Of a stretch of 64,000 bases of DNA, positions 16,225-58,507 are shown piece by piece (the first letter of the stretch is position 1; each line of letters begins with the position of its first letter). The stretch spans positions 67,103,887-67,167,886 of the forward strand of contig CP092871.1 of assembly GCA_030710605.1 (NCBI GenBank), read 5' to 3'. The notes beneath the pieces are model-generated. The model was not told the origin of the DNA, did not search any database, and was given only the letters and a program-made list of their open reading frames with translations. This DNA comes from Cordylochernes scorpioides. Taxonomy: Eukaryota > Arthropoda > Arachnida > Pseudoscorpiones > Chernetidae. Made by a program: the position numbers and the translations under genes.

Positions 16225-16685
16225 AAAAAAAGTACAAAAGTGAAATTGTACTGGAATCAGGTGGATAAATAAAGAGAAAGACCTCTGATCGTGCAACTAA
16301 AAGTTGCTGACGGTTTGCGTCATCTATCGGAATAAATATAAACTAATTGTTGATTTTTAAATATTCCAGAATTATCCAAGCACCCTTTCTTGATTAATCA
16401 AGAAAAGCTAACCACGTACGTGTTTCGGGCTGTTGGTCCTCATCAGCGTGGTGCAAGCTGTACCTAAGCGACGAAAAAATCTGGTTTTTGTGGCTTCCCG
16501 AAAGATGATGAAACGGATATTTAAGGCCGGAAAGGCGTGAGAACGCCAAACTATGTGAAAAAAATAGTACAAAGGTGAAATTGTACTGAAATCAGGTGGA
16601 TAAATTAAGATAAATACATCTGATTGTGCAACTAAAAGTTGTTGATGGCTTGCACCATCTATCGGCATAAATATAAACCATTTCT
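16225..16685 (-). mobile_element. Ribozyme-bearing repeat, direct partial dimer (family R)
   Basis: About 16228-16345 and 16563-16682 are direct repeats of each other (shared GTGAAATTGTACTG, TCAGGTGGATAAAT and the CATCTATCGG segment), so the locus is one full unit of about 335 bp plus a partial second unit. The unit contains a hammerhead ribozyme (16412-16451). Tandem partial dimers with a self-cleaving ribozyme per unit are what is known for PLE terminal repeats and for animal retrozymes; no protein is encoded. Confidence 0.65.
16412..16451 (-). ncRNA. Hammerhead ribozyme motif
   Basis: On the minus strand: stem I CCACG, core CTGATGA, stem II GGAC/GCCC around a CAACA loop (one A-C mismatch), GAAA, a minimal stem III with palindromic loop, then CGTGG closing stem I. 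Predicted cleavage lies directly before CGTGG. Very short stem III with palindromic loop is characteristic of PLE/retrozyme hammerheads, which work best as dimers (family knowledge). Confidence 0.75.
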
Positions 16686-16740
16686 CTTAACAACGTAATA
16701 CTTTAATCGCAATAAGGACAATATAATAGCAATTATATTA

Positions 16741-16945
16741 TGATGCATTAGCGCGCCATCTGTTATCAAAATTCGAAACTATTATAGACACGTATGATTA
16801 TTTTTAAAAATAATTTCTACTGCTCTTACTGCAATGGAAAAATTAATGGAAGGGCCTGGCTCATCAGTGGTGAACCCTCCCAGCGGTTTCGCCAGATATT
16901 TTTAAAAATAATCAAACGCGTCTATAATAGTTTAGAATTTTGACA
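16741..16945. mobile_element. Family-D element
   Basis: Starts with the terminus GCATTAGCGCGCCATCTG and carries the complete core (GGGCCTGGCTCATCAG to GCGGTTTCGCCAG). It then turns back through AATCAAACGCGTCTATAATAG, making a foldback. Confidence 0.65.
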
Positions 16946-17806
16946 ATATAAAATATTTATTTGATTTGTTTAAGAAAAAAACCGCGTTTAATAGTTTCAA
17001 ATCGTACATATAGATGGCGCGCTTGTATTCAATATCTACAGGAGTGTGTCACAAGGACTATATATTTGATAGACGCAGAGTACCTCAATAAAGTCCAGGA
17101 GTAAACAAAGCTGGTCCTGAGTCAACATTAATTCTTTTTGTTGTTGCAGTATTATTTCAGTGAATGTCCTCTTTCTTCAGCTTGATATCTTATTTCGTCT
17201 CTAGGCTGTTCATTCTTGTTAAACCCCAATTTGAGATAAAAATAATAAAATAAAGTTTATTTTTTAAAAATTCTTCGAGGTCTTATATCAATAGAAAACA
17301 TTAAAAATTGATTTATTCTACAAGACTCTATAACCCATCAATCTTATCACTTAAAAAAAGTGCCTTCCTGAAATTTCGATAAACATTGTCTTACGATCAT
17401 TCATTCTGACCTTGTTTTTCCTCAATGTTTTAGAAAAACCACTTTGAAAACTATCTTGGTAAATATTGCAGCGATGTTTCTAGCGTTTTTATGCATGTAG
17501 GTATCAAAATACTGTAATTATCACAGATATGTCAATTTTTCTGATAGGTTATGGCTTTATGATAATAAAGGTCATGTAAGAAAAATTATCATTTAGTTCT
17601 CTTTTATATTGTTGCATCATGTCTAATGCACCTATTTTTTAAATTTGTAATATTATTTCTCATATATTTTCAATTCAAATTTATATTTAAATTTATTCAT
17701 TTTATAAAACAGAATATATATTATAAACATATTTATGTATTATAAAATCATCATTTGTATTTTGGTACACTGTGTGACTTCACAGATGAGCTAAATATAT
17801 AAATTA
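16946..17806. other. AT-rich region, no gene
   Basis: Includes one further copy of the family-D terminus (about 17010-17030). No protein or RNA gene is recognisable. Confidence 0.4.
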
Positions 17807-18517
17807 CTAGCGGATGTACCCGGCTTCGCCCAGGTTTTTCTCGAGGGAATGTTTGTAGTCTAGTAATAAGAAAATATACTACACCTAAAAACTATCAGAG
17901 AAAAGAGAAACCACGGAAGGTGAACAGAAAAATGCTTACAATGGATGTTATGTTTACGATATCAAGTTAAATAAAAACAAAGATAAAATTTGCATATGTT
18001 GGTCACTATAAATTTGTATATTTGTTAGGCGAAATTAGAAACATGATAAAACAATTGGGTATTTAAAAACAAATGTAGAAATAAAAGTTGAAGTATAATA
18101 AACAATGTTAAAGATTAGTTTTAATTATTAATCAAGATTGTGTGTGAATATGTGAGAAAGATGTAATATCGTTGTTGTTTTCTTGGCCGACTGTTTTACA
18201 TATGGTGTTATCTTAAAATTGCTTGTTTTGAATATTTTTTAGATTGAGATTATTAGCTAGTATGTAAAAATATTAACTCTGTTGAAATTTAATTTTGTAT
18301 TTATATATAAATAAAATTAACTCTGTTGATTTTTTTTTGTATTTAATCGATAACAGCGAAGTTACGCATGTTAATGTTAGGAAATATATTTTGATGTTAA
18401 GCAAAACCTGCTCCATCTCGTTTTACATAAATGTTGAAAATTTGGTTGAAATTGATGCATTGTAACGAAAGTGTTTAGTGATGTCCACTTATGAAATTTC
18501 CATTTTATTAATATAGA
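17807..18517 (-). mobile_element. Non-autonomous Helitron, inverted partner of 44800-45526
   Basis: On the minus strand it begins TCTATATTAATAAAATGG at 18517 and ends with the hairpin CCTGGGCGAAGCCGGG, TACATCCG and CTAG at 17807, with A before and T after the element. The 711-bp sequence is the near-identical reverse complement of 44800-45526, the main difference being an insertion of about 16 bp near the other copy's 3' end. No Rep/helicase coding sequence is present. Confidence 0.85.
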
Positions 18518-19147
18518 TTCTGGAGGCTACTTAACCCTTAAAGTAGAGTTATCTCATTATTCCCTTATATAAATTTGTAGGATGGTTGAAACACGCTCTG
18601 ATAAGATGCAAGACCCGGCACAGGAGAGAATCAAGGTTGAAGAGCCTGCCAAGCCGCAACCTGGTGCAACAATACTGAAATGAGAATTTATTTTGAGCGT
18701 TCATGTTATATACAGCATGTATTAGAGAAGACGAGTTCTCTTAGTAGCATTGAATAAATAAATAATAATAATAATTGTGTTTGTGTGATCTTCAAGCGCA
18801 GAAAACCAGATTTCAGAGCTCCAAAGCTAGTATAGGCCTAAATATAGTTTCATAAAAAATATTATTTTTGGGAGTTAATTCCCCACATTTTGCTACTGAG
18901 GGAAAATAAGAATTTTTTCATATGTTGTGTTTTTTATAAAACTTCGTTAATGTGCGGTGTAAAATTTATTTGGTTTTGAACCTATGGTTTGAAAATTTTA
19001 TTGCTAAATTTTTAATTTCATCTACTGGTTTATTGAGAGAATTTGAAATTTCAATTGAGAACCTTGAGTTTGTAATGTAAATGTAACAAGTTGTTTTTTC
19101 CGGATTTATCTTTGTTTGTTTTACACCAGGGAGTAGCATAGTTCAAT
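18518..19147. other. Repeat-derived stretch
   Basis: 18580-18700 resembles part of 21270-21350 (shared GGAATCAAG-like and CCATGGAACAATA-like pieces), so it is a dispersed repeat. 18745-18775 is an AATAAATAATAATAAT microsatellite. The rest may be the decayed 3' part of the LINE relic that follows. Confidence 0.4.
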
Positions 19148-21031: not shown

Positions 21032-21930
21032 GAAAATTATTATAAAACGCAACGTAAAAAATATTTTAAACGGATACTGTACCATAGTATCATTCCTTTT
21101 GTAATATTGTTATTTTTTATATCGTGATAATTTATTTCTGGAGAGAAGCCACGGACGTGAAGACTAAAGATCACCATCTACGAGGAAGTCAACGAATAAA
21201 TATACTAACTTTGAAAGGTAATTTATTTATTATTTACTTTTTAATTCACTTTGAATATGGAAACCTACTCGGGAAACACGTACGACACAAAGAAGGAGGG
21301 AATCAAGCTGGATGATCCTACAAAGTTGCAACACCATGGAACAATATTGTCGCGAGTATATAGCAAGAGCAAATTTGGAAATAACTAATTTATTATAAGG
21401 GGTATTTACCTTTTTTAGTTCTCCAATAAAATTACATACAAGTGGTATTTATACGGAGAGAGATAACAACTTATCCCAAGGTAAAAATAATAATAATGAG
21501 AGTGGTCAGCCACCGTCCCGTTTTCCTTATTTGCCGATAAGATTCCGAGAACCCCTCACACCTTTTCCCCCGGAGTCCAGTGATGATTGACAGGTGTCCC
21601 ATGGAGCTTCCTGTGGCCGGGGTTGTAGGGTTACTTGACAATATATATTAACAACAGCAAAAAAGCTTTATTAAGACCTTTTAGTCTTAAACAATATATA
21701 TATTCAACTAGATGGTGCTCTGCTTTCTAAAATGATCATGTGAGTGGTCAGGGTAGGTTTTTTTTTTGTTTTTAATATTGCTTTTTTTCCTTAATTTTTT
21801 CACAAAAACATCTCAATGTATGTATTTTTTCTATTTCTATAAAATATATATTGTATATAATAAGGGGAAAGATTAAAATGTAAAAATATTTATTAACTGT
21901 AACTCTGATATACTAGCCAATTGGCCAAAT
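21032..21930. other. Repeat remnants, no gene
   Basis: 21120-21350 looks like a dispersed repeat related to 18580-18700. 21490-21620 is a GC-richer island I cannot assign. 21700-21770 resembles the outer arm of the inverted dimer at 57828-58382 (GATGGTGCTCTGC, GTGGTCAGG). Confidence 0.4.
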
Positions 21931-21934
21931 ACTC

Positions 21935-22105
21935 ATTTTTGATTAATCAAGAAAAGCCAACCACGTACGCATTTCGGGCTGTTGGCCCTCGTCAGCGTAG
22001 TACAAGCTGTACCTCAACGACCAAAAAACTGGTCATTCAGGCATCCTGAAAAATCATGAAACTGGTAGTTAAGGCCAGAATTGCTTGAGAACGCGAAAAT
22101 GTGTG
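21935..22105 (-). mobile_element. Family-R fragment with ribozyme
   Basis: A truncated family-R unit comprising the TTGATTAATCAAGAAAAG lead, a hammerhead motif and the downstream GAACGCGAAA segment. It has the same order as 16385-16560. Confidence 0.6.
21961..22000 (-). ncRNA. Hammerhead ribozyme motif
   Basis: Minus strand: stem I CTACG pairing with CGTGG (one G-U), core CTGACGA (position 7 is free in hammerheads), stem II GGGC/GCCC fully paired around CAACA, GAAA, minimal stem III. All invariant core bases are present. Confidence 0.78.
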
Positions 22106-22261
22106 AAAAATCAATTGACATCTTTTCATTTATGTTTGTTAACTTCCGAGTTTTAAAATCTTCCTTGGACGGTGTTGAACCGAAACAAATAAAGGATAGG
22201 AGGAGTTGTAGCTATTTGGGAGGTTGTATGAAGGACGTTATTAAAAACTAATTTTTGTATA

Positions 22262-22762
22262 TAAACTATTCTATAATACAATATAATGCGGCTTATGATT
22301 GTAAAACGACATTTGAAAATTATCCCGCATGTGTTTCTTTTAAACGAAAAGTCGAAACTTCATCCCTAAGGTTAGAAATAATCGTTATTTCTCCTTAAAA
22401 ATAAATTTCGATTCTTCGTTTAAAAGAAACACATACGGGATAATTTTCAAATGTCGTTTTACAATCATAAGCCGCATTATATTGTATTGTGAATCACTTT
22501 ATATAATATTTACGAACGGAGAAATATGTCCAGGGTAGCCTAGTGGACATGGCATCTGCCCGGTAAGCGGAACACTGTGGGTTCGATTTTCATCCCCGGA
22601 TACTTTTATTTTTCCGTTTATCATTACTCTTCACAATTCATCCTTTCATACTTCACCCCTAAGGTTGGAAATAATCGTTATTTCTTCTTAAAAATAAATT
22701 TAGATTTTTCGTTTAAAAGAAACACATGCGGGATAATTTTCAAATGTCGTTTTATAAACTAT
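22262..22762. mobile_element. Foldback element enclosing a tRNA-like gene
   Basis: Arms containing ATCCCGCATGTGTTTC and ACGACATTTGAAA occur in inverted order at both ends and again inside, around a tRNA-like sequence at 22529-22600. The same arrangement with the same tRNA-like core is at 35575-36105, and an arm piece is at 57182-57240. This is a dispersed, structured, non-coding element. Confidence 0.65.
22529..22600 (+). tRNA. tRNA-like sequence, anticodon GGT, inside a repeat
   Basis: Folds as a 72-nt cloverleaf: acceptor TCCAGGG/CCCCGGA (one mismatch), 3-bp D stem, anticodon stem TCTGC/GCGGA, loop CCGGTAA, T arm GTGGG with TTCGATT. The loop would give GGT (Thr), but position 33 is C instead of the near-universal T. 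The T stem is partly unpaired (GTGGG against TTCAT). Being inside a repeat, it is more likely a SINE-type promoter than a working tRNA. Confidence 0.55.
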
Positions 22763-24598: not shown

Positions 24599-25024
24599 TT
24601 AACGTCTGTTCATAAACGCTTTCATCCTATTGCCATGTACAACTTTCACATCGTTCATGGTGACCCCTCTTACTCTGAAGTTGACATCGGAGACCCTAGC
24701 TTCCACACGGAAAGGCCCATAGAAGTTGGAGAAACCTTCATTCTTAGGAACAGCTATCATTACCAGGTCTCCTTTATCCAAACTTCTGGAATAAGCTGGC
24801 CTAGGATTCATAAGCTTTTTAACAGAATCACCTGACATAAACTGTCTGACAGTTTCCTTTGCTTTCCGCATCACCCTTAACCTCTCAGCCCAAGTAGGCT
24901 TTCTAAAACTATTAACAGACCCAGCGCTACACTCACAGCTTCTGTTAAACTCAGTAGGTAGCAACTTTACAGCCTCGTTTTCAATGCGCTTCACTGATTT
25001 CTCCTCTAAGGAGCTTGAAACCAT
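24599..25024 (-). pseudogene. LTR-retrotransposon integrase C-terminus
   Basis: The 141-codon frame ends with DKGDLVMIAVP and FSNFYGPFRV, the GPY/F-type module at the end of Ty3/gypsy integrases, where it contacts DNA and the target chromatin. The catalytic DDE core, the RNase H and the reverse transcriptase that should lie upstream are missing. The protease remnant follows only about 180 bp away, so about 2.5-3 kb of pol has been deleted. The apparent ATG is not a true start. Confidence 0.75.
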
Positions 25025-25200
25025 TGGTTTATGTGCACTGGCAACGCAGCTAAGGTCTACATAATCATGGTCTTCTGGTTTCTAGGAAATCATGTTGCCA
25101 CGTTCCCGTATTAGAGGCAACGGGATATTGAATCTCCTTATATCATTGATTCCCAGAATCCCGTCGTAGCCCTTATCTCCGAGTGACATTAACCAAAACC

Positions 25201-25638
25201 TTATCTCTCCCAGCTACTGCCGTTTTTGTTACCAACTCTACAGGTTTTAACAAGTGTAAGTGTCTGCTCGTGGCCAGTGACTGACACTATACGTAGAGTT
25301 TTAAGTGCATCGTCCCAATTCTCCTTCAAGACCTTGCACTTTTCAGAATAAATAATACTGACTTGGCTTCCTGTATCATATAACAGGTGCCACATATTGC
25401 CGTTAATATTCACCTTAACTATTGGCAGATTTCCATACTGATCTCCGCCATTTAAACGTAAGTTCACTATCTCAGCATTGTCAAGAGTATTGCGGTTAGC
25501 AAACATAGAAGACTGTCTTGAGCAATCACTAGCTATATGTCCTAATCTACACTCAGGTAGACTCAGCTTGATTTCGCCGTATACAAACATAGCCACATTC
25601 GTCCAATGAGAAGGCGGGGGAGATTGGTTCACAAACAA
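25201..25638 (-). pseudogene. Gag-pol fragment: half zinc knuckle and aspartic protease
   Basis: The 145-codon frame begins in LTR sequence (first 21 residues are translated from the 25581-25716 LTR repeat) and then shows CRLGHIASDC, the second half of a gag CCHC knuckle. Residues 85-95 read LLYDTGSQVSI, the retropepsin active site (DTGS at 88-91). The fusion to LTR sequence shows a deletion of the rest of the LTR, the leader and most of gag. Same element as 24599-25024, transcribed on the minus strand. Confidence 0.78.
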
Positions 25639-25716
25639 ACGAAAACAAAATTCTTTCCACTAAAACCTGAGATAAGATATGATAAGAATGCAAATATTAG
25701 TCAATATAATTTGACA
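25581..25716 (-). mobile_element. Truncated 5' LTR of the gypsy-like element
   Basis: 136 bp matching 24010-24145 with about eight differences and the same TGTCAAAT start. It is cut before the TATA box, directly at the junction with the gag knuckle. The promoter is therefore lost. Confidence 0.7.
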
Positions 25717-26521: not shown

Positions 26522-27072
26522 GATTTCTCTCTCTCTCTCCTTGGAGGAAGCCGTGGTGCTGCGCGTCGCATGTTGGAGCGTCCCCGCCTGGCCGCCGTTC
26601 CTGGCTCGCGGTATCTCCGGCGCTGGGCGCCTGTCGTCGACGTGCCCTCCACCAGCCTGGCGTTCTCATCTCTCCGTCGCTGCTCCTTCGGGGGCCATGC
26701 AGCGGACATCGCTCTGCGGCTAGCCCTGCACGCCCTGCCTCATCCGGGCACCCGGCGTCGAGCCAGCCCGTCTGCATCGCCTGCGGCTCCAGCGACCTGT
26801 CGCTGGCTCATCGCTACTGGTCCTGCAGCGCCGTCCGCCCTCTCATCCGAGAGGTGTTCTCCATCATCGGGCGGCCGCCGGACCTGCAATCCTGGATCTT
26901 CGCGGTGAACCTCGAGAACCACGCCATCACCATCTCCTCAGCGGCAAAGCATGCCATCTACGTCTTCTTCGTAGATCGCGAGATGCGTGGTATCTCTGGG
27001 GACCCATTGGCGATCTTCCATCAAACTCTGCAGCGGTGGCAGAGGCGCCATGTACATAGTTGTATTTTTTAA
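26522..27072 (+). pseudogene. GC-rich LINE ORF2 C-terminal fragment
   Basis: The stretch is strikingly GC-rich against its AT-rich surroundings. One frame (about 26540-26760) is Arg/Ala-rich with DIALRLALHALPHP. After one frameshift near 26762, frame 1 reads VCIACGSSDLSLAHRYWSC, a C-x2-C-x8-H-x4-C zinc finger, and continues to a stop at 27072. This layout is the post-RT C-terminal tail of I/Jockey/R1-like LINEs. An AATAAA lies near 27255, followed by a (TC)n run, plausibly the 3' UTR and tail. The 5' part is absent (5' truncation, typical of target-primed insertion). Confidence 0.72.
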
Positions 27073-27297
27073 TCATTTTTAAAATCATTTTTTATTATAA
27101 CCATCATCCTCATTATAAATTTCTCATTTTCTTATAATTAGTGCGGACTGTGCACTTTACATGTATTGACAAGATGTCAAGATGGTGGAGCCTTCCTCAA
27201 TCATAATTTCACTGTATTATTCCCATTATTTTTCATCCATAATTGACTAGTAGTCAATAAAGTTTGTTTAACCGTCTCTCTCTCTCTCTCTCTCTAG

Positions 27298-27430
27298 AAG
27301 CCTCTTGGACAAAAATATTTTGGTCGCAGAGGTATAGCCTGCACCACGCTGATGAAGGCCAACAGTCTGAAACGCGTTCGTGGTTGGCTTTTCGTGGGTT
27401 GACCAAATATCATTGGAGTTTTAAATAGCT
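27298..27430 (+). mobile_element. Family-R fragment with ribozyme
   Basis: Has the family-R order TTTTGGTCGCAGAGGTA, hammerhead, GGTTGGCTTTTC. It begins directly after a (TC)n run. Confidence 0.6.
27344..27383 (+). ncRNA. Hammerhead ribozyme motif
   Basis: Stem I CCACG/CGTGG fully paired, core CTGATGA, stem II AGGC/GTCT paired (with one G-U), loop CAACA, GAAA, minimal stem III with a palindromic CGCG loop. The A-U closing pair of stem II replaces G-C of the other copies, a compensatory change. Confidence 0.8.
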
Positions 27431-27954
27431 ATATATCTAAAAAACTAATGATGTGTACATATACTAGAATCTTGGTTATTTAAAACAAAATCAGTACAGA
27501 ATTCCTATCAGTTATCGTGGTTCATCGTGGTTCGTATAAGAGTTTACAAAATATATTTAATCACTACTTCTTTATACATCAGATATGGACCTGCCCTGAA
27601 GTCCTCCTCTACGTGGCGGGCGGGAGAAGCAGCACAAGTAAGGGACTGCCCTGTAGTACGGTGTCGTGAGCACCGAGCCGCTACGGTAACCGCGAACCCT
27701 ACAGGGAAATGTGGCAGACTAATGGGGCAAAGGCATCTCCCCATTCCATGGAGCACATGGATAAGATACTATCACCATCAGATATGGAAGCACAAAAAAT
27801 TGGCAGGCTCATATTCATCAGCGTAGCAGGTAAAACATTGAAAAACTTTTCTCTGATTCATTGGCTGAAGATAGATTGCTTTGTCAATCAGTTCTACAGT
27901 TCAGTAGAAACGTTATCAATATAGGGTTAAAATTGTAAAAGAATATGACTAGAA
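27431..27954. other. Unassigned stretch with GC-richer patch
   Basis: 27590-27770 has higher GC and open frames on both strands but no recognisable protein. Not called as a gene. Confidence 0.35.
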
Positions 27955-28345
27955 TACACAAAATTTTAGTTGCACGATCTGGAAATGCCTTTTCATTAAT
28001 TTATTCACCTGATCCCAGTAAAATTTCACTTTGTACTATTTTTTTCATATAGTTTTGCGTTTTTTTGGCCCTTCCGGCATAAATACCTGTTCCATGATTT
28101 TTAAAGATGTTTCAACGAACAGATTTTTTCGGTCGTTGAGGTACAACCATGAGCGCCAACCATGCCTATGAGGGCCAACAGTCCGAAATGCGTACGTGGT
28201 TGGCTTTTCCTGATTAATCAAGAAAGGGTATTTTGGATAATTCCGAAATAATTAAAAACAACGTTTAGTTTATATCTATTCCGACAGATGGCACAAGCCA
28301 TTAGAAGCTTTTATCTGCAGGATCAGGAAATGCCTTTTTTTTCTT
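27955..28345 (+). mobile_element. Family-R unit with direct ends, decayed ribozyme
   Basis: One near-complete unit followed by the start of the next: TGGAAATGCCTTTT-like sequence at about 27980 recurs at about 28328. The hammerhead position (28158-28197) keeps stem II, GAAA and CGTGG, but the core reads CCTATGA, so it is not expected to cleave. Confidence 0.6.
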
Positions 28346-29089
28346 AATAGAATACACACAATGCTTGTTATGCCTCTTCACCAAGACTGTGTATAGTTGA
28401 TTACCTGTTAAATTTCAAAACTTTCTACCTTGTTTGTCTTTCTCTATTTATGGACTCCGCGGTGTCGTAATGAAAGGCTTTTGTTGTTGAATGTCCTTTA
28501 TAAAGGAGAGAAAACGTGTTAACTGAATTGTATAATAGTACAACAGCTCTCTCTCTCTTCTATTTATATATTTACATAATATGTTTTTTTCCACCTTATC
28601 GTCTGAGAATGAATTCTTAAACACTCTCAAGAGACATTAAAGATATATATTTATATTATAATAAATTTCTGTGATAGGAATTATTGTGAGAGATAGGAAT
28701 TTGCTTCTTTTAATACAAGAGTATTATGCCAATGTTATCCAGTCGTGGAAAATATAATAAAATAACTCTAAATCACTATTTGATTTAATTAAGCTTATAA
28801 AATAAATTGAGAATAAAATAGCTGACTTGAGACGTGAAGAAGAAAGAAAATACTTGATTAGGTATTTACATATTTACAAAAGGTTTGAGAAGGCCAAAGT
28901 AAACAAACTCAATAAATTTATAGAGTGTGAAGCGGCGCTATATGATGACAGATTTCACAGAGTTGTTCTAGGCATATTTTTAAAAAATATTAGATAAAAC
29001 TCTTATAACATATATATGCGTGTGTGTAATAATCATGATAAAATTGTGAAAAAAAAAAAAACGTTTGAAAAACCCACCAAAATGTTTTC

Positions 29090-29250
29090 TCTTAATGAGT
29101 TTCTTCTTATTTTAAAATGCAAGCTTTCAAGTGATAATCGCTCTTTAACGGGTTTAATCCAAACATCGACTGTTTCTTGTAAGACATAGTCGATGTTTTA
29201 ATTAAGCCCGTTGAAGAGCGATTATCACTTGGAAGCTAGCATTTTAAAAT
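29090..29250. repeat. Foldback inside duplicated block
   Basis: Arms around GCAAGCTTTCAAGTGATAAT and ATTATCACTTGGAAGCTAGC are inverted about a centre near 29170. The same palindrome is at 61190-61345 in copy 2. Confidence 0.7.
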
Positions 29251-29304
29251 AAGAATAAACTCATTGTGTGAAAATATTTTTGTATTTTTAAAAATAAATC
29301 TTGT

Positions 29305-29462
29305 ATTTTGGGGAAAATATAGCCACATATCAACCCCAATAATTTATTTAATTCTCGATGTTTTAGTGACTTGTTGTCATTCTCCTCAGGGGAATGTAAG
29401 TAACTGAAACGTCGAGAATTAAATAAATTATTGGGGTTGATATGTGGCTATATTTTTCCCAA
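29305..29462. repeat. Second foldback with hammerhead-like core
   Basis: Arms of about 60 bp (ATATAGCCACATATCAACC and its complement) surround sequence that on the minus strand reads CTGAGGA followed by a TGAC/GTCA hairpin; on the plus strand the matching arm has ACTGAAACGTC. These are hammerhead-like pieces, partly decayed. Copy 2 equivalent: 61390-61550. Confidence 0.55.
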
Positions 29463-30768
29463 ACCACTTTCCAACCAAGAAATGATATTCAAAAATAATA
29501 TTGTTTAGAACCCCCCCCCCCCCCCCATTGCCATGGTAACTTAGCTACATATGCGCCGGTGGCAAGTTAAGATGTAATAGATGCAAATGCCACCAGCAGC
29601 AGCAATGGCAAGTCCCAGTTGGGGACTCTAATCCGATTAAGTCCAAGAACCCATTAGAATTTTGGGGGACTCTTCTAATTTGACCGTGATTAACTTGGCC
29701 CCGGACTCTAGCTGATGGATCTATGTGAAGCTAGAGGGTTACCTTTAGTTAGCTAGTTAGTTTTTGTCTTGAATACACTTTTTCGTTAAATAATTTCTCG
29801 AATTTGAAGATAAATCCGTGTGTCTAGTTTTTTGTTTGTAATTCAGCCATAAAGGTTGATGTAAAACCTCACAGATGTGAACAATGGAATGTCATTAGGA
29901 AGGGATCGAAGGCATGCGTGGTGTGATGGCAATTCTCGCCTATGTAATGGAGTTGGGTTGAGTTGAGCAGTGATAACGATGAAAGAGTACACACTAAGAG
30001 AAATAGGAGTTTCAATGGAAGAAATTCACAAACGTGGAGACAGAGAGCGTCCGACCATATGTTCGCTCCTGACGTCAGCTCACGAGTGATATGCAGGCTG
30101 CGTCGAGTACGACTGTCCAGTGAAACTCCCACAGGCCCTCTTTCCCCGGCCTTATATCGGGCTCTCGGTAGTAAGAGATTGGCATCTTATCTCTACAGGG
30201 GGAAGTGTCAAAGATGTTAGCTTCTGAACATCAAAATCGAAAGCCTAGCCTGGCTGCCTCCCCCTCTGTAACCACAATCGTTTGGGATTTTTTTGAGATT
30301 CAACAACAACACGAGATTTTTGTTGCGACATTCCGTCTTCCGTTGACTCACTCGTACCAGAGACCAAGAATGGGAAAGAAGCAAACAAGGATAGAAAGTA
30401 TCAATAAGTAAATAGGTATTCATCTATATCCAGTTTTGATTTAGAAATAACACTATCTGTCTCTTCTAATCTTCATATTTTTCATTTAACGACATTTTAA
30501 GATTTTCTGTTGAAATATAGAACTGGTAGCACACGTAGACAACAAAACTCTTCTCGGCCAATGTATCAGAGACATCTCTGAGTTGTCACGTTATCACGTT
30601 GACAGGTATGTGTGAGAAAAACCGTCAATTTTTGCCTTTCACATCGAAAACGGTAACAATAAAATATGGGAATCTTTATCTTCGCATAGCTCCCATTCTA
30701 AGCAATAGCTACTCAGCCAAGCACACACGGCGAGATAAAATGTCTCACACCGGGGGAACGGCTCCCAC

Positions 30769-30942
30769 CTCTGATCTTGGTGATGAGCTCCCAGACCCGC
30801 ACCACCTCGTAGAAAGATTGCTTGTCGTCCACGGAGAAGACGAGGACAAAGCCCCGGCCGGAGCGGATGCTGAGTTCCCGCATGGCTGGAAAGTGGTGGG
30901 AGCCTGCGGTGTCCACGATCTCCACGGTGTGGAAGATTCCGT
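30769..30942 (-). CDS. Ras-family small GTPase, internal exon (copy 1)
   Basis: A 174-nt exon bounded by a pyrimidine-rich/TG-rich acceptor ending ACAG before 30942 and a donor AG|GTGGGA after 30769. It encodes 57 full codons with split codons at both ends. It contains VDTAGSHHFPAMRELS, the G3 (DxxG) box that binds the gamma-phosphate side of GTP, followed by FVLVFSVDDKQSF, the following beta strand and helix of a Ras fold. The sequence is Ras subfamily; the FPAM after the G3 box recalls DIRAS, RASD/Dexras and RASL10 proteins, but I cannot choose. The flanking exons with G1 and NKxD boxes are not in the window. The local GC is much higher than the surroundings, as expected for a conserved exon. 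Confidence 0.82.
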
Positions 30943-30943
30943 C

Positions 30944-31345
30944 TGTACACACAACACGGTACTTCTATAACAGCTCAACTATTACTATTTTAGCCTATGG
31001 TACCAGCACACTTATTTATCAGCCGACATCAACAGTTCTGAATCATGAACAACAATCTCCATTGTGTAGAAGATCATGTCTGTACACATCACGGTACTTC
31101 TATAACATCTCAGCCTATGGTACCAGCACACCCATTTATAGGTGGACATCAACAGTTCTGAACCATGGACAACGATCTCCACGGTGTAGAAGATCATGTC
31201 TGTACACATCACGGTACTTCTATAACATCTCAGCCTATGGTACCAACACACCCATTTATAGGTGAACATCAACAGTTCTGAACCACAATCTCTACAGTGT
31301 GGAAGATTCCGGCACTTCTATTGCAGCACTCTGCCCATTTTAACC
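30944..31345. repeat. Tandem repeats built from the exon's 5' junction
   Basis: Units of about 120-137 bp repeat the splice acceptor and the first roughly 30 nt of the Ras exon together with about 85 bp of adjacent intron. Matching CTGTACA sites are at 30941-, 31078-, 31198-, and a damaged one near 31310. On the minus strand each unit reads an acceptor-like TGTACAG followed by a decayed ATCTTCTACACCGTGGAGAT. The exon start has therefore been amplified into the upstream intron. Confidence 0.8.
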
Positions 31346-32016
31346 TATGGTACCAGCACACCAATAAAATAGGTCGCCTGTTCTAAACCACAATCTACAG
31401 TGGCAATAGAATCAGAAGTTTCTGCAGGAGAAGCATGAAAGATAAACATGGATAATGAGAGGATAAAGAGAAGCGAAAATGAAAAATGAAGACAAGAAAG
31501 AATTTGCTAGTGAGAAAGTTAGAGTGATATAGAGGAATTCAGTTTATGAGTACACCCTGGCCATTAAAAATTGCTATAAAGAGAAGAGCTCAGATGGATT
31601 TACCTTGAGTTAATTGACGACAATCGATTTAAAGTAAGGATGAAAAGGTAAAGAGAAGAAGAAGTAATCTCCCTTTAAAAAGTGTTTTTTTTTTCCTTTT
31701 TGCTATATATACTGAAATATTCCTCTTTTATTATCCCTAGATAGAGATTTAGACCCAAATCTTTGACATTTATAGAACGGTGTATGTCAGAATGTTTGTG
31801 CTGGCTCCAATTCCACAGAAAAGAACTGTGGAATGCTAGTTTTTAAGAGATTCCATTTATAGAATTCTTTCTCAAAACTGTTTTATTATATAAATGCTTT
31901 AATTAAATGTAATTATTTATTCTCTCGCGAGAAAATATTTTGAAACCATAACATATATTATAATTGTGTTTTATAAATCACACAGTCAACAGTTAAACTT
32001 TGTAAAATGTTTTCAG

Positions 32017-33027: not shown

Positions 33028-33094
33028 CACAACTTGTGCACGGTGTAAGAAACATGTGTTACAGACAACATTCATCTTTAATTAAGAAAATAAA

Positions 33095-33250
33095 AAAGGC
33101 ATCTCCTTATCGGGCAACTAGAAGTTGCTGATGGCTTGTGTCATCTATCGGAATAAATATAAACTATTCCTGTTGATTTTTAATTATTCCAGAATTGGCC
33201 AAATACCCCATTCTTGATTAATCAAGAAAAACTAACCACGTACGTGTTTT
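33095..33250 (-). mobile_element. Family-R fragment
   Basis: Carries the CATCTATCGGAATAAATATA and TTGATTAATCAAGAAAAACT segments of family R and stops at CCACGTACGTG, inside the ribozyme, so the core is lost. Confidence 0.6.
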
Positions 33251-35574: not shown

Positions 35575-36105
35575 ATAATATAATGCGGCTTTGTGATTGT
35601 AAAACGACATTTGAAATACTATCCCGCATGTGTTTCTTTTCAACGAAAATTTAAAATTTATTTCAAGGAGAAATAACGATTATTTCTAACCTTTTGGATG
35701 AGGTATGAAAGGGCGAATTGTGAAAAGTAATGATAAACGGAAAAGTAAAAGTGTCCAGGGATGGGAATCGAACCCACAGTGTTCCGCTTACCGGGCAGAT
35801 GCCATGTCCACTAGGCTACCCTGGACATATTTTTCCGTTCGTAAATAATACATAAAGTAATTTATAATACAATATAATATAATGCGACTTGTGATTGTAA
35901 AACGACATTTGAAATACTATCCCGCATGTGTTTCTTTTCAACGAAAATTTAATTTAATTTTCCCTTTATCATTACTCTTCACAATTCACCCTTTCATACC
36001 TCATCCAAAAGGTTAGAAATAATCGTTATTTCTTCCCTTGAAATAAATTTTAAATTTTCGTTGAAAAGAAACACATGCGGGATAGTATTTCAAATGTCGT
36101 TTTAT
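35575..36105. mobile_element. Foldback element enclosing a tRNA-like gene, second copy
   Basis: Same structure as 22262-22762 with nested inverted arms (ACGACATTTGAAATACTATC) but reversed orientation of the tRNA-like core. Confidence 0.65.
35754..35825 (-). tRNA. tRNA-like sequence, anticodon GGT, inside a repeat
   Basis: A 72-nt cloverleaf with a perfect 7-bp acceptor stem (TCCAGGG/CCCTGGA), D stem GCC/GGC, anticodon stem TCTGC/GCGGA (one G-U), loop CCGGTAA, and T stem GTGGG/CCCAT with TTCGATT. Position 33 is C rather than T. It has no downstream T run close to the 3' end. Better preserved than the copy at 22529, but still embedded in a dispersed repeat. Confidence 0.6.
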
Positions 36106-36884
36106 AATATAAATGATACTCTGTTTATAAAATAGTAAATACTTTGCTACAATATTATTAAAATATAAGTCAGGGCATGAACGTTTATATAGATTTGTTT
36201 TTAGAAATACACAGATATAATTCCGCCAATAAATATATACATAGTTTGATTATTGGAAAATAGAGAGATAACTTCCATGAATAAAAAAAAATTGCGATAT
36301 TATATCTAATATAGAATTCTTGCTTTACGATGTATTCACACACTAAGCTGAAAAAACAGCATGCTGATTGGCTGATTAAGGTCACGTGATAGTAAACAAT
36401 CAATCAGGAAGCGAATAAAATGGATATCATATTTTCCTACGTACATTAAGGTGAATTTTATGGTCGATAAGGAAGAGAATTTCTTCAATTTATTTGAATA
36501 AAGAAAAATATGGGTTGACGAAACATATCAAAAAAGAGTGAATGTATATTTAGCAATTTATTACATTAAAACTTATTTCTTCAATCTGAAAATATTTTAA
36601 TTCTGTACTTCTTAATCCAAAACCATAATCCTTTAATCCCAAAAGATAAACTTCCAAACAATTTAACCCGCAGGAAACGCTATGGTTAATTTTCACCATA
36701 TGATTTTTATTGATGAAGTTCCCTTTAGAGCGAGAGAGTAATTTTCATTGGAAAACTTGGAAATTTGCCTAATTACAAGGTTGCGTTTTAGTCTGAAGAA
36801 ATTATAATATGTTGAAGGGGGGTGGATTGAACTGGGTGTGACTCTCTAATTTATATATTTTCTAAAATCTTTATATATATATTC
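36106..36884. other. AT-rich, no gene
   Basis: A 72-codon minus-strand frame at 36185-36403 is hydrophobic by AT bias and not convincing. No other feature is seen. Confidence 0.4.
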
Positions 36885-37085
36885 GGTATAAATATCAACT
36901 AATGGTTGATTTTTAATTATTCCAGAATTGGCTAAATAGGTGGTTAGCATTTTGATTAATCCAGAATGGGTATTTGGCCAATTATGGAATAGTTAAAATT
37001 CACGATTAGTTGATATTTATTCCGATAGATGGCGCAAGCCATCAGCTATTTTTAGTTGTACGATCAGAAGAGATGCGTCTTTCTA
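36885..37085. mobile_element. Family-R inverted dimer without ribozyme
   Basis: ATCAACTAATGGTTGATTTT and its inverted partner face each other; the ribozyme segment is deleted at the centre (about 36950). The right side ends with the usual ATGGCGCAAGCCATCAGC segment. Confidence 0.6.
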
Positions 37086-37184
37086 TATATATATAGCACC
37101 AGATGGCGCTCTGCCTTCTGTAAAGCACATGTGCTCCTGGTCAGGATATGCTTTCTTTATTTTTAATATGCATATGTGTGTTAT

Positions 37185-40145: not shown

Positions 40146-40725
40146 AAAAAATCATAAGACGCCGCAACTTTTTTTATTCACCTGATCAAAGGAAGCTTTC
40201 GGGCAAACCCTTCTTCAGCTAACTAAAATGTATAAAGAACTAATACAAATGAAAACACCAAAACGCGAATGTTTCTTTTCACAAATAAATCAAACTTCTA
40301 CTGCCCTTACTGCGATGAAAAAATATATCGGGAAGGCTTTGCTCATCAGTGGTGAACCCTCCCTGCGGTTTCGCCAATTTAATCTACCAGACCGCTTCTT
40401 TAGAGCTCTAATACTGTTCTGGATCATTCTGCTTTTATACGCTGCATTGAAGGGTGGAATCTTAGAAATGGTATTTGAGAAAACTATGGACATAAGCGTT
40501 TAGGACAGTAGAATTACATTTAAATATTTGCATCGAGGAATGCTTTTCCGTAAACAGTAAGAACAATTTGGTGTCTTCATTTGTATTATATAGATGGCGC
40601 GTTATTGGTATGTATTAATAAACAACTAATGTTTATGCCTTTTAGTTAGCTGAAGAAGGGTTTGCCCGAAAGTTTCCTTTGATCAGGTGAATAAAAATAA
40701 TTGCGGCGTCTTATGATTTTTTAAA
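40146..40725. mobile_element. Inverted-arm element with hammerhead-like ends, hosting family D
   Basis: Arms at about 40146-40228 and 40635-40725 are complementary (ATAAGACGCCGCAA, ATTCACCTGATCAAAGGAA). Each arm reads, outward, CTGAAGA, a GGG/CCC hairpin and GAAAGC, an intact-core hammerhead-like arrangement but without a convincing stem I. The interior (about 40289-40620) is a family-D element ending in GATGGCGCGTTA. Confidence 0.65.
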
Positions 40726-43174: not shown

Positions 43175-43775
43175 ACATCGGCCAGTTAAAGTTTTATTTT
43201 CTTAAAGTTTCAACAAAAATATTTTGTAAGAAATTTGAACAATTTTTTACGCGTATGATTATTTTAAAAATTAAATTAATTTTCTACTGCCCTTACTGCT
43301 ATAATAAAATAATGGAAATCCCTGGCTCATCAGTGGTGACCCATATAAAAGGAAAATCGAAAATTCAATATTGCAGCGGTATGGTAGATTAAACAGGCAA
43401 AATCGGTGAGAAGGTTCACCACTGATGAGCCAGGCCCTCCCATTAGTTTATCATCGTAGTTAGGGCAGTAGAAAATTTATTTATTTTAAAAAATAATCAT
43501 ACAGTCAAAAATAGTTAAAATTTCTTATAACAGATGGCGCGCTAATGCATCGTTTCGACAAAAATATTTTGTCTTCGTCAGGAGAAATAAAAATAAAGCA
43601 TTTGGCAAGGCGAATAATTTTTAACGCCTTGCCAAAAGCGTTATTTTTATTTCTACTGACAAAGACAAAATAATTTTGTTGAAACGTTGAGAAAATAAAA
43701 CTTTAACTGGCCTAAATGTCTATTTTTTAAAGAAATATGAATGCCTGCCAGGAAGCCTCTATCTTCAAGATTGAA
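43175..43775. mobile_element. Inverted-arm hammerhead-type element split by a family-D insertion
   Basis: Arms 43175-43227 plus 43573-43610 (left, interrupted) and 43645-43720 (right) are complementary. The right arm on the plus strand reads CTGACAA, a GACAAAAT/ATTTTGTT hairpin and GAAACGTT with long potential stem I; the left arm on the minus strand has CTGACGA and GAAAC. A family-D element at 43228-43551 splits the left arm. Confidence 0.7.
43228..43551. mobile_element. Family-D element with 21-bp target duplication
   Basis: Flanked by 43207-43227 and 43552-43572, which match at 20 of 21 positions (both contain ACAAAAATATTTTGT). Inside are two cores in opposite orientation and the ATGGCGCGCTAATGCAT end. 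Confidence 0.78.
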
Positions 43776-50814: not shown

Positions 50815-51185
50815 CCAGGGCTAGGTTTCTTGCACAATTTTATTCCTCTAGCTTTCAGGCTAACATGTATTTAACAGGAGCAACTAGTTGAATAACTTCT
50901 AGTTAACTATCGTAAAGATAGAGGTTGACTGACGGAATTCACAGTTCTTTAAATTAAAGACACTTTGGCCAGTAAATCTTTTTTATTGTCTCGACATTTT
51001 GACTAAAATCTTTTGTCCTCGTTTTGTCGACATTTAGCAAAGTGTTAAAAGTGGTAACGCTTTGCCAAATGGTTTAATTTTTGTTCGCTCCTGATGAGAA
51101 CAAAATATATTTGTCGAAACGTCGAGATAATAAAAATATTTATTGGCCAAAGTATCTTTATTTTTAAGTTCTAGTTAACTATATA
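50815..51185. repeat. Compound foldback with a near-canonical hammerhead core
   Basis: Outer arms around AAAGACACTTTGGCCAGTAA and TATTGGCCAAAGTATC. On the plus strand 51083-51125 reads CTC, CTGATGA, an imperfect ACAAA/TTTGT hairpin, GAAAC, GTC and GAG, i.e. all core bases, a short stem I and a GTC cleavage triplet. Confidence 0.6.
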
Positions 51186-54525: not shown

Positions 54526-54584
54526 GATAATATATAGACAATAAGAAACATAAATGCTAAAATAATTGAAAAATTTACACCGTA

Positions 54585-54772
54585 CACTCATGGAAAAAAG
54601 TTAAGGAAGTGGAAAGTCTTTTCTGTTGCCTGTCGTCTATTATTTTGAAGGAGAGACAGAGGCAATTTTGCTCACACTGGTTATCTCAAGTATCTTCAAT
54701 AAAGGTCACAGTAATATATTTCAGAGTTATTCTCTGAATCCCGACAAAAGGTACAATTTCCTTAAATTCGAA
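54585..54772 (+). mobile_element. Single-unit MITE related to the tandem array
   Basis: TA-flanked left end CACTCATGGAAAAAAGTTAA, then GGAGAGACAGAGGCAATTTT and one copy of the ATCTTCAATAAAGGTCAC unit. It is truncated before the right TIR completes. Confidence 0.7.
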
Positions 54773-54837
54773 ACACGTAGCGTGGCAGTTAAAAAAGTAA
54801 ATTGCTTCAAATTTTCCGTTTATTGAACAATTCTAAC

Positions 54838-55012
54838 CCTAGCGCAGATAGCTAAACCGAGGCTCTGGTAACTTTTTAAATGAAAGGTTGGAACTGATTC
54901 TACATGTGTAGACATGAGATTAAGTACTTAAGCAGTTGTAACCTCCGTCCCATCATGAGCATCATGGATTGTGGCATGTGTACGTGTGACAACAACACAG
55001 TATAGCATCAGA
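54838..55012 (+). mobile_element. Diverged SINE-like fragment
   Basis: Shares AGGCTCTGG and TACATGTGTAGACATG with the SINE body at 9560-9615 and a CATGAGCATCATGG segment in the same position. A weak tRNA-like head may precede it. Confidence 0.4.
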
Positions 55013-55399
55013 CCTTGGTGGGTGAAATGTTTATACTATCAGTACGCTGTATCAATCCAAATTCAAACATAATTTCAATCTTAAGGATCTCTAGAATTCC
55101 AAATATGAAAACAAAGGTGGACATACTTCGGACACATAATGAGAGCAAGTGGATTAGAAAAGATGTCAATATGTGGGGGAGGGGAGAGGAATTTAAGGAA
55201 GAAGAAAGAGAGGAAGGTATACAATGAGCTAGCTGGAAGGAGTCAAGAAAGCTACTGGAAGGTTATTAGATGAGATGCCAGTGATAGTCACCAACAGATC
55301 GAATTGGAGAATATTGTCTATATTGTCACCAAAGGTCGAATTCGACTTGAGATATAGGTATTTTGGTATGAAAATAAGATATTATGAAAACACACAAAT
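55013..55399. other. Unassigned, no gene
   Basis: Purine-rich patch at 55170-55220; otherwise nothing recognised. It may be internal sequence of the family-b element. Confidence 0.35.
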
Positions 55400-56866
55400 A
55401 AGTTTAGAATTATGATACAATGAGAGTAATTCAAAAATAATAATGATTTTTTAAGTTGTAGTTTTGGATAGTACCAATTGTAAAATTAGTAAGTTGTTAA
55501 AAATGTGTGATTGGCGATTTTTTTAAAGTAGAATTCAAGTAATGAATTAAAATTTATAATTTGATTAAAAATAAAGTAAAAAATTAATAAACGAGAGTGT
55601 AAGAGATTTAAAAATTGAAATAGAATGTATAAGTTTGAAATATATACACAAAATTAATGGGAATCAAGTTGTGAGATTGAGAAAAAAGTTATGTAGGTTT
55701 TTAAAAACTTACAGTTCATTGTTCAGTCAGGAGACTTGGTCTTGTCGTCCTGCTGACGTGGAAGGAGCTCCATGTAGGGCTTGTAGAAGCTAGTAGCTTC
55801 TGTAAATTTGATTGCGGCCTGTCGCCTTGAACATTGTCTCGATGTAAGGCCGAAGGTGGGGAACTTGTCACCGGGTTTGCCACTATGCTCTTCGGTTTCC
55901 ATGTCTTGCGAGATTTTCGGTTGTGTCGTTGGGGTGGTCAGCTTGCTCCTGGCGTTGGCGATCTGTGTTAGCGGATCTGCGGAGGTCCCTTGGGGCGGCG
56001 TTTCCTCCTCAAATATCGTCTCTTGTGGGGGAGAGATTGCTCGGTCGTTTCGTTGGAATGGCAGGCTTGTTTGTCCATCTTTGCTCTTTCTCGCTTCTAT
56101 CTGGACAGGCTTCTTACCTTCTTAGTTGTGGTCATTCTTCGTTTTGGTCATCCTGTCGACTTACGCTGTGGTGAGGTATCCAGTTGGTTTAATCTATGGT
56201 GTAAGATCCTGTCGACTCTCGCTATACTGTATTGACCGAGAAGAACAGTCAGGATTTGGAGAGTTTTCCAATACCTCTCAGCACATTGGAAGACCTTTAA
56301 CAGTTCTCACAGAGTACAGGCAGTCGTGGTCGAGGCAGAGTGGAAAGCTTGGAAATTTTCATACACAAAAAACGAAAGTACACAGTTGTACTAGGAAAGT
56401 TCCGTGAACAGATAAAAGTCGAGCTAGAAGCGACAGATGGAGATTTAAGAAGAATCTTACTGGTCTACATGGTCGATGGTGCGGACCTTGGTGACATCTG
56501 ACGAGGGCTACCGCCGATGGTAAAGTGGCTTTTTATTTCTGCGAATTGACAGCTTTATATATCTTTGCCTAGAGGAAGTATTGAGTTTCAGCGGATGCAA
56601 CAAGGGCGTGGATCGGAAGATGTCATTGTACACTGGCAACGCTCTGACATCTTCTAGGCCTCGTTGGACTTCTATCTCAATCTCTTGCTTTACCTCAACT
56701 CTTAATCTATTACAGAGTTTTATTTATTTATCCTCAGTTTGTACAAAGTACATTACATATGGTGATGTAATGACACATGTCAATCATTGTATAAATATTT
56801 ACAAAAGTGTTTATTATACAAAATGAAAATATTGTTATATTATGGGGTTGTTGGTTTAAATTACCA
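55400..56866 (-). mobile_element. Family-b LTR (copy 5) with leader
   Basis: The minus-strand LTR runs from 56866 (TGGTAATTT start) to about 56167. It is followed by leader sequence 56166-55690 and further AT-rich sequence to 55400 collinear with 46753-47460. No gag or pol follows, so the copy is 3'-truncated. Several chance frames of about 80-105 codons cross it. Confidence 0.62.
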
Positions 56867-57012
56867 TATATATATAATAAAATAAATAAAGCTTCCAAGG
56901 ATAAGTTTCTAGTGCAAACCTTTTATTTTCAAACTTTCAGACTTGTCAGTCCTTCAATAGAAGTATTACATTAACAAATTAATGATAAATACTATTTTAT
57001 ACAAATTATTAT

Positions 57013-57134
57013 AATGCATTAACGCGCCATGAGCCAGGCCCTCCAATTAATTTTTCCATTGCAGTAAGGGCAGTAGAAATTGTTTATATTTTTAGAAAGA
57101 ATCATACGCGTCTATAATAGTTTCGAATTTTTTC
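57013..57134 (-). mobile_element. Family-D element with 14-bp target duplication
   Basis: Flanked by the perfect repeat ATACAAATTATTAT (56999-57012 and 57135-57148). The insert is a half-length family-D copy from the ATTAACGCGCCAT end to TCTATAATAGTTTCG. Confidence 0.8.
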
Positions 57135-57148
57135 ATACAAATTATTAT

Positions 57149-57432
57149 TATATTTTAAATACTTATGATATTGAGAGAAATATATTACAATATTGCAAAA
57201 AGACATTTGAAAACTATCCCGCATGTGTTTCTTTTCAACGAAAAATCAAAATATTACAATATTGTTTTGTGTGAGTGTGTGCGAAACACAATATTTGAAA
57301 ATATACGTGCATGGTGGATGAATGATACGTGCTGGTTGAACTATATCTCGAGACTTCAAACTGAATTTAATAAATGCCGTGAACTATTGTGGTATATATA
57401 GAAGAGTGCCAACATCTATGGGATAGTATATA
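57149..57432. other. Repeat arm fragment and AT-rich sequence
   Basis: 57182-57240 is a piece of the tRNA-bearing foldback arm (CTATCCCGCATGTGTTTC). Otherwise nothing is recognised. Confidence 0.4.
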
Positions 57433-57806
57433 TGTTGTAATGTAATTTCATCCTGTATAATGACTGTAATGTGTTGGTTAGATGCAGTCGTTGTGGCCAC
57501 AATGGTTAGAGTGGTTCAGGCGTGAATGAATTGCCCAAAAGAACGAGACATTTTGGATGTCACCACAGAGATGGCTAGAGAGATTGAAGCCGGACGCCGG
57601 TCAAGGCAAGTTTTATCTATATTTGAGCAAAGGGGGGCACCCCTGGTAATTCGACTATGTTTTAACGGACCGACGGTGTAATCGGAGATCTTCCTCCTGT
57701 CTGGCGCCGGCTGTCACTCAAAATATTTTTATTATTTCGTTTTGGTAATTATACTATAGTTATATTACATATGGGGATATAAGTATAAATTGAAATATAT
57801 TACAAC
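57433..57806. mobile_element. Solo LTR, family c (copy 2)
   Basis: Matches 6240-6626 from TGTTGTAATG to TATTACAAC; the terminal CA is mutated to CC. Collinear with indels. Confidence 0.6.
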
Positions 57807-57964
57807 CTATTAAAAATAAAAAAAGGCATATCCTGACCAGGGGCACATGTGCTTTATAGATGGCAGAGCGCCATCTGGTGGAATCGAAATCACCTAAAAA
57901 TTGATTTAGACTGTTCCCTGATATTTGACCAACCCAATTTCTTGATAAATCAAGATAAAGCCAT

Positions 57965-58004
57965 CCACGGACGCGTTTCGCGCTGTTGGCGCTCGTCAGC
58001 GTGG
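57965..58004 (-). ncRNA. Hammerhead ribozyme motif, fully canonical
   Basis: Minus strand: stem I CCACG/CGTGG, core CTGACGA, stem II GCGC/GCGC fully paired around CAACA, GAAA, minimal stem III with CGCG loop, and the preferred GTC cleavage triplet. Stem II swaps a G-C for a C-G pair relative to 21961-22000, a compensatory double change. Confidence 0.82.
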
Positions 58005-58200
58005 AGTAGGCTATACCACTGCGACCAAAGAACATTTTGGTCCCAGAGGCTTCTTGAAAAACCAAGAAATGGGTGTTTAAAGCCAAACTTGCGTAAATAC
58101 GCTTAACACATGAAAAATTAATTTAAAAATACCCATTTCTTGGTTTATCAAGAAACCAATGGAGCCAAAAATATTTTTGGTCGCAGTGGTACAGCCTACT

Positions 58201-58240
58201 CCACGCTGACGAGAGCCAACAGCGCGAAACGCGTTCGTGG
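58201..58240 (+). ncRNA. Hammerhead ribozyme motif
   Basis: Plus strand: stem I CCACG/CGTGG, core CTGACGA, stem II GAGC/GCGC (one A-G mismatch), GAAA, minimal stem III, GTT triplet. Confidence 0.75.
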
Positions 58241-58507
58241 ATGGCTTTATCTTGATTTATCAAGAAATTGGGTTGGTCAAATATCAGGGAACAGGCTAAA
58301 TCAATGTTTATGTGATTTCGGTTCCACCAAATGGCGTTCTACCATCTGTAAAGCACATGTGCTCCTGGTCAGGATATGCTTTCTTTATTTTCAATATCAA
58401 CACCTGACCTTTTTATTTTTTTTTTCTATTATTTTTTCATTACAACATATATGTATTTATTATCGCTCTAAAATAATGATTGAACAAAATTGAACGAAGA
58501 AGATATG

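Follow-up and report, generated by a model that had tools for sequence, protein, structure and literature searches.

A 64,000-nucleotide stretch of the genome of the pseudoscorpion Cordylochernes scorpioides (contig CP092871.1, positions 67,103,887 to 67,167,886 of the forward strand; hereafter the window) carries short dispersed repeats with hammerhead ribozyme motifs, which raises the question of what kind of element these repeats are and which enzyme inserted them. An initial annotation, made from the sequence alone, described them as a retrozyme family of units of about 335 bp with five hammerheads, mobilised by Penelope-like elements and possibly producing circular RNA. Our analysis leads us to regard them, with a probability of about 0.8, as old copies of a small, non-coding and non-autonomous animal retrozyme, i.e., of the kind without long terminal repeats (non-LTR), which falls into two subfamilies and would spread by the cycle proposed below. 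Animal retrozymes are characterised by type I hammerheads, repeats of 150–450 bp, a G+C content below 50% and target site duplications of more than 4 bp (PMC7229834). The window itself has a G+C content of 34.6% and a single 100-base gap (58508-58607).

The ribozyme motifs of the family, with their scores against the Rfam model Hammerhead_HH9 (RF02275) or against R1, a covariance model that we built from the five intact motifs, are as follows:

16412-16451, minus strand: hammerhead A, core CTGATGA, stem II GGAC/GCCC with one mismatch, stem III ACACGU, HH9 18.0 bits
21961-22000, minus strand: hammerhead B, intact core, stem II GGGC/GCCC, stem III AUGCGU, HH9 13.9 bits
27344-27383, plus strand: hammerhead C, intact core, stem II AGGC/GTCT, stem III ACGCGU, HH9 18.0 bits
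28160-28199, plus strand: degenerate hammerhead D, CCTATGA replacing CTGANGA, R1 50.3 bits
57965-58004, minus strand: hammerhead E, intact core, stem II GCGC/GCGC, stem III ACGCGU, HH9 31.2 bits
58201-58240, plus strand: hammerhead F, intact core, stem II GAGC/GCGC with one mismatch, stem III ACGCGU, HH9 20.8 bits

The window was searched with a descriptor composed of CTGANGA, a stem II of at least three pairs (one mismatch tolerated), GAAA, U16.1, H17 and a stem I of at least three pairs, and the outcome was compared with 60 sequences resampled from it by a first-order Markov model. Six sites were recovered, namely the five intact motifs and a weak one at 1387, while the resamplings yielded a mean of 0.083 and a maximum of 1. 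The five motifs are real and above chance, at the coordinates and on the strands first given for them, and they have in common the elements then listed: CCACG or CTACG with CGTGG, CTGAYGA, the CAACA loop and GAAA. Six copies have a complete ribozyme region, and in five of them the core is intact, so that the type I hammerhead expected of an animal non-LTR retrozyme is present. The minimal stem III, which the initial annotation named as typical of such families, is a single A-U pair closing a tetraloop in all five.

When aligned (five intact rows, 62 columns), the motifs display a two-part stem I, with four outer pairs, an internal loop and five inner pairs; the outer part reads AGCU/AGCU in A, AGCU/GGCU in B and AGCC/GGCU in C, E and F. 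Stem II consists of four positions around CAACA. The stem III sequence common to C, E and F, ACGCGU, is palindromic, unlike those of A (ACACGU) and B (AUGCGU). Pairing is possible in 97.1% of 70 alignment cells, compared to 22.9–38.6% when the partners are slid by one to three columns. The compensatory changes claimed for stem II stand in part: three pairs changed on both sides (one in the outer stem I, two in stem II), but GGAC/GCCC at 16412 and GAGC/GCGC at 58201 are mismatched, and 33 of 500 shuffles reached this count. The covariation therefore goes in the right direction, with few changes, and is suggestive only.

Other hammerhead-like sequences occur in the window. The isolated motif at 1387-1409 (plus strand) satisfies the descriptor and has a palindromic stem III, ACCATGGT; it was not counted in the family, its R1 score being 12.9 bits (E 0.58). 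Two motifs at 51091-51119 (plus strand) and 43553-43581 (minus strand) resemble the minimal Penelope type, with CTGAYGA, a long A/T-rich stem II and GAAACG; the first retains GAAACGTCGAG, whereas in the second, which is situated within a 142-bp palindrome, the U at 16.1 is missing, and both fail the descriptor. The inverted 91-bp copies 40146-40236 and 40632-40722 (94.5% identity) each contain CTGAAGAAGGGTTTGCCCGAAAG, a hammerhead-like core with an unconvincing stem I. Finally, regular-expression matches within GGTTCACCACTGATGAGCC belong to another repeat family and fail the descriptor.

Around the ribozymes, the following copies and fragments were delimited:

16222-16689, minus strand: copy A, 468 bp or 1.40 units of 335 bp, with one ribozyme; edges set by the flanking 12-bp repeat
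21694-21778, minus strand: fragment like the subfamily-2 3' end (74.7% over 87 columns; 75.6% over 78 columns)
21919-22110, minus strand: copy B, fragment of a subfamily-1 unit, 81.3% identity to A over 193 columns
27293-27396, plus strand: copy C, fragment of a subfamily-2 unit, 83.2% identity to arm E over 101 columns
27961-28347, plus strand: copy D, 387 bp or 1.12 units of 345 bp, 77.2% identity to A over 369 columns; edges set by the flanking 11-bp repeat
33081-33249, minus strand: truncated subfamily-1 copy, with the ribozyme 3' end and downstream part only
36883-37169, plus strand: composite fragment, with a short inverted piece (36883-36929), a subfamily-1 3' part and then a subfamily-2 3' end
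57808-58102, minus strand: arm E of a head-to-head inverted dimer, subfamily 2
58103-58396, plus strand: arm F of the same inverted dimer, subfamily 2

Judged by their sequences, the copies are members of two related subfamilies: subfamily 1, with A, B, D, the truncated copy and part of the composite fragment, and subfamily 2, with C, E, F and the fragments 37097-37169 and 21694-21778. The likeness between the two lies mainly in the ribozyme surroundings and the 3' end; common to both are the ribozyme, a hairpin just 3' of it (CTTGATTAATCAAG or similar) and a 3' end made of TCAGGAWATGCY and a T run. This 3'-end pattern, with up to three mismatches, has seven matches in the window (chance mean 0.71), all within the named copies and fragments. 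The direct partial dimers reported initially were recovered: in A, 16225-16343 occurs again at 16560-16678 (offset 335), and in D, 27981-27993 occurs again at 28326-28338 (offset 345). The unit size of about 335 bp is thus correct for A, but it is 345 bp in D, while the arms of the inverted dimer, which belong to the second subfamily, measure about 295 bp each. The inverted dimer itself is present, though it extends over 57808-58396 instead of 57828-58382. As an inventory, the initial annotation was right about the five motifs but overlooked the degenerate ribozyme of D, the sequences at 33081-33249 and 36883-37169 and the flanking duplications described below. Both repeat offsets fall within the 150–450 bp of animal non-LTR retrozymes, and the G+C content (39% in unit A, 37% in unit D) is below their 50% limit. 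Substitutions between E and F number 10, 11 and 8 at the three codon positions of their shared open frame, and the open reading frames (ORFs) of these arms have zero Pfam family matches at E ≤ 1.

How the copies were inserted is best read from their junctions. Two of them are flanked by likely target site duplications:

16210-16221: likely duplication of A, left, 12 nt, ACAACGTAATAC
16690-16701: likely duplication of A, right, 12 nt, ACAACGTAATAC
27950-27960: likely duplication of D, left, 11 nt, TAGAATACACA
28348-28358: likely duplication of D, right, 11 nt, TAGAATACACA

In a narrow test against 20,000 flank pairs at the same distance and 20,000 random ones, the match length at A was reached by 7 and 16 pairs, respectively, and that at D by 9 and 29; these counts are optimistic, because the flanks were picked after inspection of the sequence and the same-distance control omitted the tandem array at 13663-15090. 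A wider test (40 nt on each side, 2000 controls) gave weaker values, with 0.0175 for A and 0.0015 for a neighbouring Penelope-like insert introduced below; at D it was confounded by the internal repeat (13 nt, 0.0295), and at the other five loci it found no match longer than 9 nt. B and C showed no flanking duplication. With 12 bp at A and 11 bp at D, the duplications exceed the 4 bp mentioned above. A and D differ in where they start and end within the unit, and such inserts, longer than a unit and with varied end points, are the expected product when a circular or multimeric template is copied. Past the cleavage site, homology ends in one T-rich stretch at 153 nt in D, 162 nt in E, 161 nt in F and 160 nt in the fragment at 33 kb (the last three ends being defined by homology alone), while copy A ends in a separate T run, 195 nt past the site. 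Altogether, flanking repeats and inserts of more than one unit fit target-primed copying of a circular or multimeric RNA. They also bear on the idea that the copies are satellite-type tandem DNA whose hammerheads are fossils, and that they owe their spread to recombination instead of reverse transcription. The one-pair stem III and the palindromic tetraloop of C, E and F do resemble amphibian satellite hammerheads (PMC7229834), yet insertions that are dispersed, flanked by 11–12 bp repeats and longer than one unit speak against this explanation, to which we give hardly any credence.

The identification as a retrozyme is well supported, because type I hammerheads, units of 335–345 bp, partial direct dimers and duplications of more than 4 bp come together, in agreement with animal non-LTR retrozymes (PMC7229834, PMC4918200) and with the first proposal for this locus. 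The family belongs to this already described kind, and what is added here is the evidence from insertion junctions. A plant LTR retrozyme (type III hammerhead, 4-bp duplications) does not fit the type I topology and the 11–12 bp repeats. In Mytilus galloprovincialis, non-LTR retrozymes likewise have type I hammerheads, two families of similar sequence and repeats of a few hundred bp, and Penelope-like elements exist in the same genome; the mussel units, which are expressed as circles, measure 350–390 bp, versus 335/345 bp in subfamily 1 and arms of about 295 bp in subfamily 2, as far as the published description allows comparison (PMC7229834). By their published description, the HHR_Amex1 retrozymes of the axolotl share with the present family a one-pair stem III, the palindromic tetraloop (in C, E and F) and a unit near 330 bp, the tetraloops of A and B being unlike theirs in not being palindromic. 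As a rule, helix III is longer in invertebrate hammerheads (PMC7229834).

Several results weigh against the retrozyme reading. Although all five intact motifs align to positions 1–77 of the 77-position HH9 model, their scores (13.9–31.2 bits) remain below its gathering score of 52. The hammerhead is the minimum-energy fold in none of the five intact copies, being less stable by 2.2 (C) to 9.1 (F) kcal/mol: the folds of C and E keep every pair of stems I and II but add pairs across the core, those of A and B keep part of the intended pairs and that of F no stem I pair. For 69-nt pieces, the shuffle z-score is above −1.5 in three of five cases (A 0.39, B −1.17, C 0.64). When folded as circles, unit A is 56% paired (z −2.9) and unit D 53% (z −1.9), compared to more than 70% for metazoan retrozyme RNAs (PMC4918200), and the hammerhead is absent from the predicted fold of circular unit A. 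None of the copies in the window has two ribozymes on the same strand, so that none alone can release unit-length RNA; the copies seen here cannot on their own yield the circular RNA initially envisaged, and the source of circles, if any, is elsewhere. Searches for relatives by hammerhead pattern gave no matches in viral_contigs (two patterns) or genome_contigs (one pattern), two collections without animal genomes, so that this negative carries little weight. Lastly, the best match flanking the inverted dimer is 5 nt long, a length that 12,804 of 20,000 controls reached.

The window has 11 further self-palindromic loci (two within a long duplication described below and one within a family fragment being excluded), which make the shape of the inverted dimer weak evidence and weaken head-to-head palindromy as a Penelope signature. 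Together with the missing duplication, they give room to another origin for 57808-58396, either as a fold-back element similar to miniature inverted-repeat transposable elements that acquired a ribozyme, or as a local inversion. We find such an origin unlikely, since the arms end in the T-rich stretch shared with copies in a single orientation and since copy C carries the same 5' part. Rfam microRNA matches over the inverted dimer are below gathering scores and reflect its palindrome.

The retrozyme reading leaves the moving enzyme to be found, and a candidate helper family is represented downstream of the inverted dimer:

59127-59138: target site duplication of the Penelope-like insert, left, 12 nt, ATCAATAAATAT
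59139-60993: probable 5'-truncated Penelope-like insertion, a head-to-head palindrome with a GIY-YIG-like ORF per arm, separate from the retrozyme
60994-61005: target site duplication of the Penelope-like insert, right, 12 nt, ATCAATAAATAT

The arms of this insert are about 98% identical and each contains a 176-residue ORF, one of which was tested and matched PF01541 with E = 0.015 and 16.0 bits, below the cut-off of 22.6. The name Penelope-like rests on this weak match and on motifs in the ORF that we take to be those of Penelope-like elements. No reverse transcriptase was seen in the insert, which is truncated; relatives of the GIY-YIG-like protein were absent from viral_contigs, and its predicted structure (mean predicted local distance difference test score of 30) was not used. 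The length of the ATCAATAAATAT match was reached by 6 of the 20,000 same-distance and 17 of the 20,000 random flank pairs. An empty site is available as well: the flanks match 28388-28920 and 28909-31897, two segments that overlap by 12 bp (28909-28920), so that surroundings about 97% identical exist at 28388-31897 without the insert. The right arm is 29 bases longer than the left before the duplication, similar to the optional 30–40 bp tail of Penelope elements (PMC11167929). In the 3' region of the insert, hammerhead-like motifs at 60880 (plus strand) and 59222 (minus strand) read CCGATGA where CTGATGA is expected, and their stem III holds the palindrome AAGCTT; an Rfam search of this 3' end returned chance matches only and no hammerhead. 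The empty site belongs to a long duplication (28388-31897 and 58608-64000, about 97% identical) whose second copy begins right after the gap; it may be an unmerged haplotype of the assembly, in which case it is uncertain how far the insert lies from the inverted dimer.

At face value, the five motifs might then be parts of Penelope-like pseudo-LTRs and not separate retrozymes, given that Penelope-like elements bear minimal type I hammerheads and have short duplications, partial tandems, inverted copies and an internal start of reverse transcription (PMC11167929, PMC3846280), and that a probable element of this kind lies in the window. Yet the units have a two-part stem I and, at 335–345 bp, are too short for the Penelope ORF (reverse transcriptase and GIY-YIG), which they do not carry; the motif and the 3' end of the insert are unlike theirs, and a tblastn search with the GIY-YIG-like ORF matched nothing in the window other than its own two arms. 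Of the 24 listed ORFs with at least 120 amino acids, 18 were scanned against Pfam and yielded no reverse transcriptase, though no search was aimed beside the units. On balance, we hold the pseudo-LTR explanation to be very unlikely.

Treating the copies as retrozymes, we must still ask whether their helper is a Penelope-like element or a long interspersed nuclear element (LINE). Duplications of 11–12 bp and T-rich ends would also suit LINE target-primed reverse transcription, and in Nematostella, repeats with duplications of 15 bp have been compared to LINE insertions (PMC4918200). The head-to-head arrangement at 57808-58396, with 3' ends outward, argues the other way, yet it has no duplication and palindromes are common in the window. 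LINE twin priming is not known to yield copies joined head to head whose 3' ends both point outward. Just upstream of copy C, the ORF at 26524-27072 (plus strand) presumably resembles the C-terminal part of a LINE protein, and it has no Pfam match at E 0.01. Mobilisation by a LINE seems to us a less probable but serious alternative. The initial proposal of Penelope mobilisation is accordingly plausible rather than demonstrated: the probable truncated element, its 12-bp duplication and published biochemistry (PMC11167929) favour it, but LINE mobilisation predicts similar duplications. The biochemistry concerns a lizard Penelope-like protein by which both target strands are cut and extended, with reverse transcription beginning at an internal point of the template; since hammerhead mutations left insertion in vitro unaffected, cleavage need not be an insertion step (PMC11167929). 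In Adineta, Penelope insertions have inverted pseudo-LTRs and duplications of 8–10 bp, some being without duplication (PMC3846280). These reports fit the present picture, directly for the helper and by analogy for the retrozyme. Penelope-like elements are the leading candidate.

The cycle that we propose would begin with transcription of a tandem-unit locus located elsewhere. The type I hammerheads, perhaps most active as pairs because stem III is weak, would split the transcript at every unit, giving pieces of about 335 nt; the palindromic ACGCGU of C, E and F implies that these three could pair as dimers, as reported for the hammerhead of the axolotl, in which stem III is likewise a single pair (PMC7229834). 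A host ligase would close the units into circles, and the reverse transcriptase of another element would copy the circle or a multimer at a nicked target. Copying would start in a U-rich stretch about 153–195 nt past the cleavage site and run over more than one unit, and insertion would leave target site duplications of 11–12 bp.

The window also contains other features:

13663-15090: a 120-bp unit repeated 12 times in tandem, both strands having long open frames
22529-22601 and 35753-35825: transfer RNA matches above the Rfam gathering score (38.8 and 53.4 bits, respectively), adjoined by palindromic repeats common to both sites
24599-25659, minus strand: remains of an LTR retrotransposon, recognised by an integrase p58 C-terminal domain (E 4.3e-9), together with a match to an aspartyl protease slightly below the cut-off
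55726-56121, minus strand: ORF that matches the histone hairpin-binding domain PF15247 below threshold (E 0.001, 19.5 bits versus a cut-off of 27)

Penelope-like elements have been put forward as a strong candidate for moving animal retrozymes by Cervera and de la Pena (PMC7229834), and insertion junctions are direct evidence on the integrating enzyme. In this respect, the window brings together junctions of a retrozyme and of a probable Penelope-like element, with the same duplication length. We tentatively suggest, as a possibility that we rate below even odds, that the Penelope machinery itself integrates animal retrozyme circles by cutting and extending both target strands, i.e., by double-ended priming. 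If true, this would give the 11–12 bp duplications, the insertions of more than one unit and the occasional head-to-head dimers, and it would explain two alternative start sites about 40 nt apart, for the retrozyme and its helper alike, in a single 64-kb stretch.

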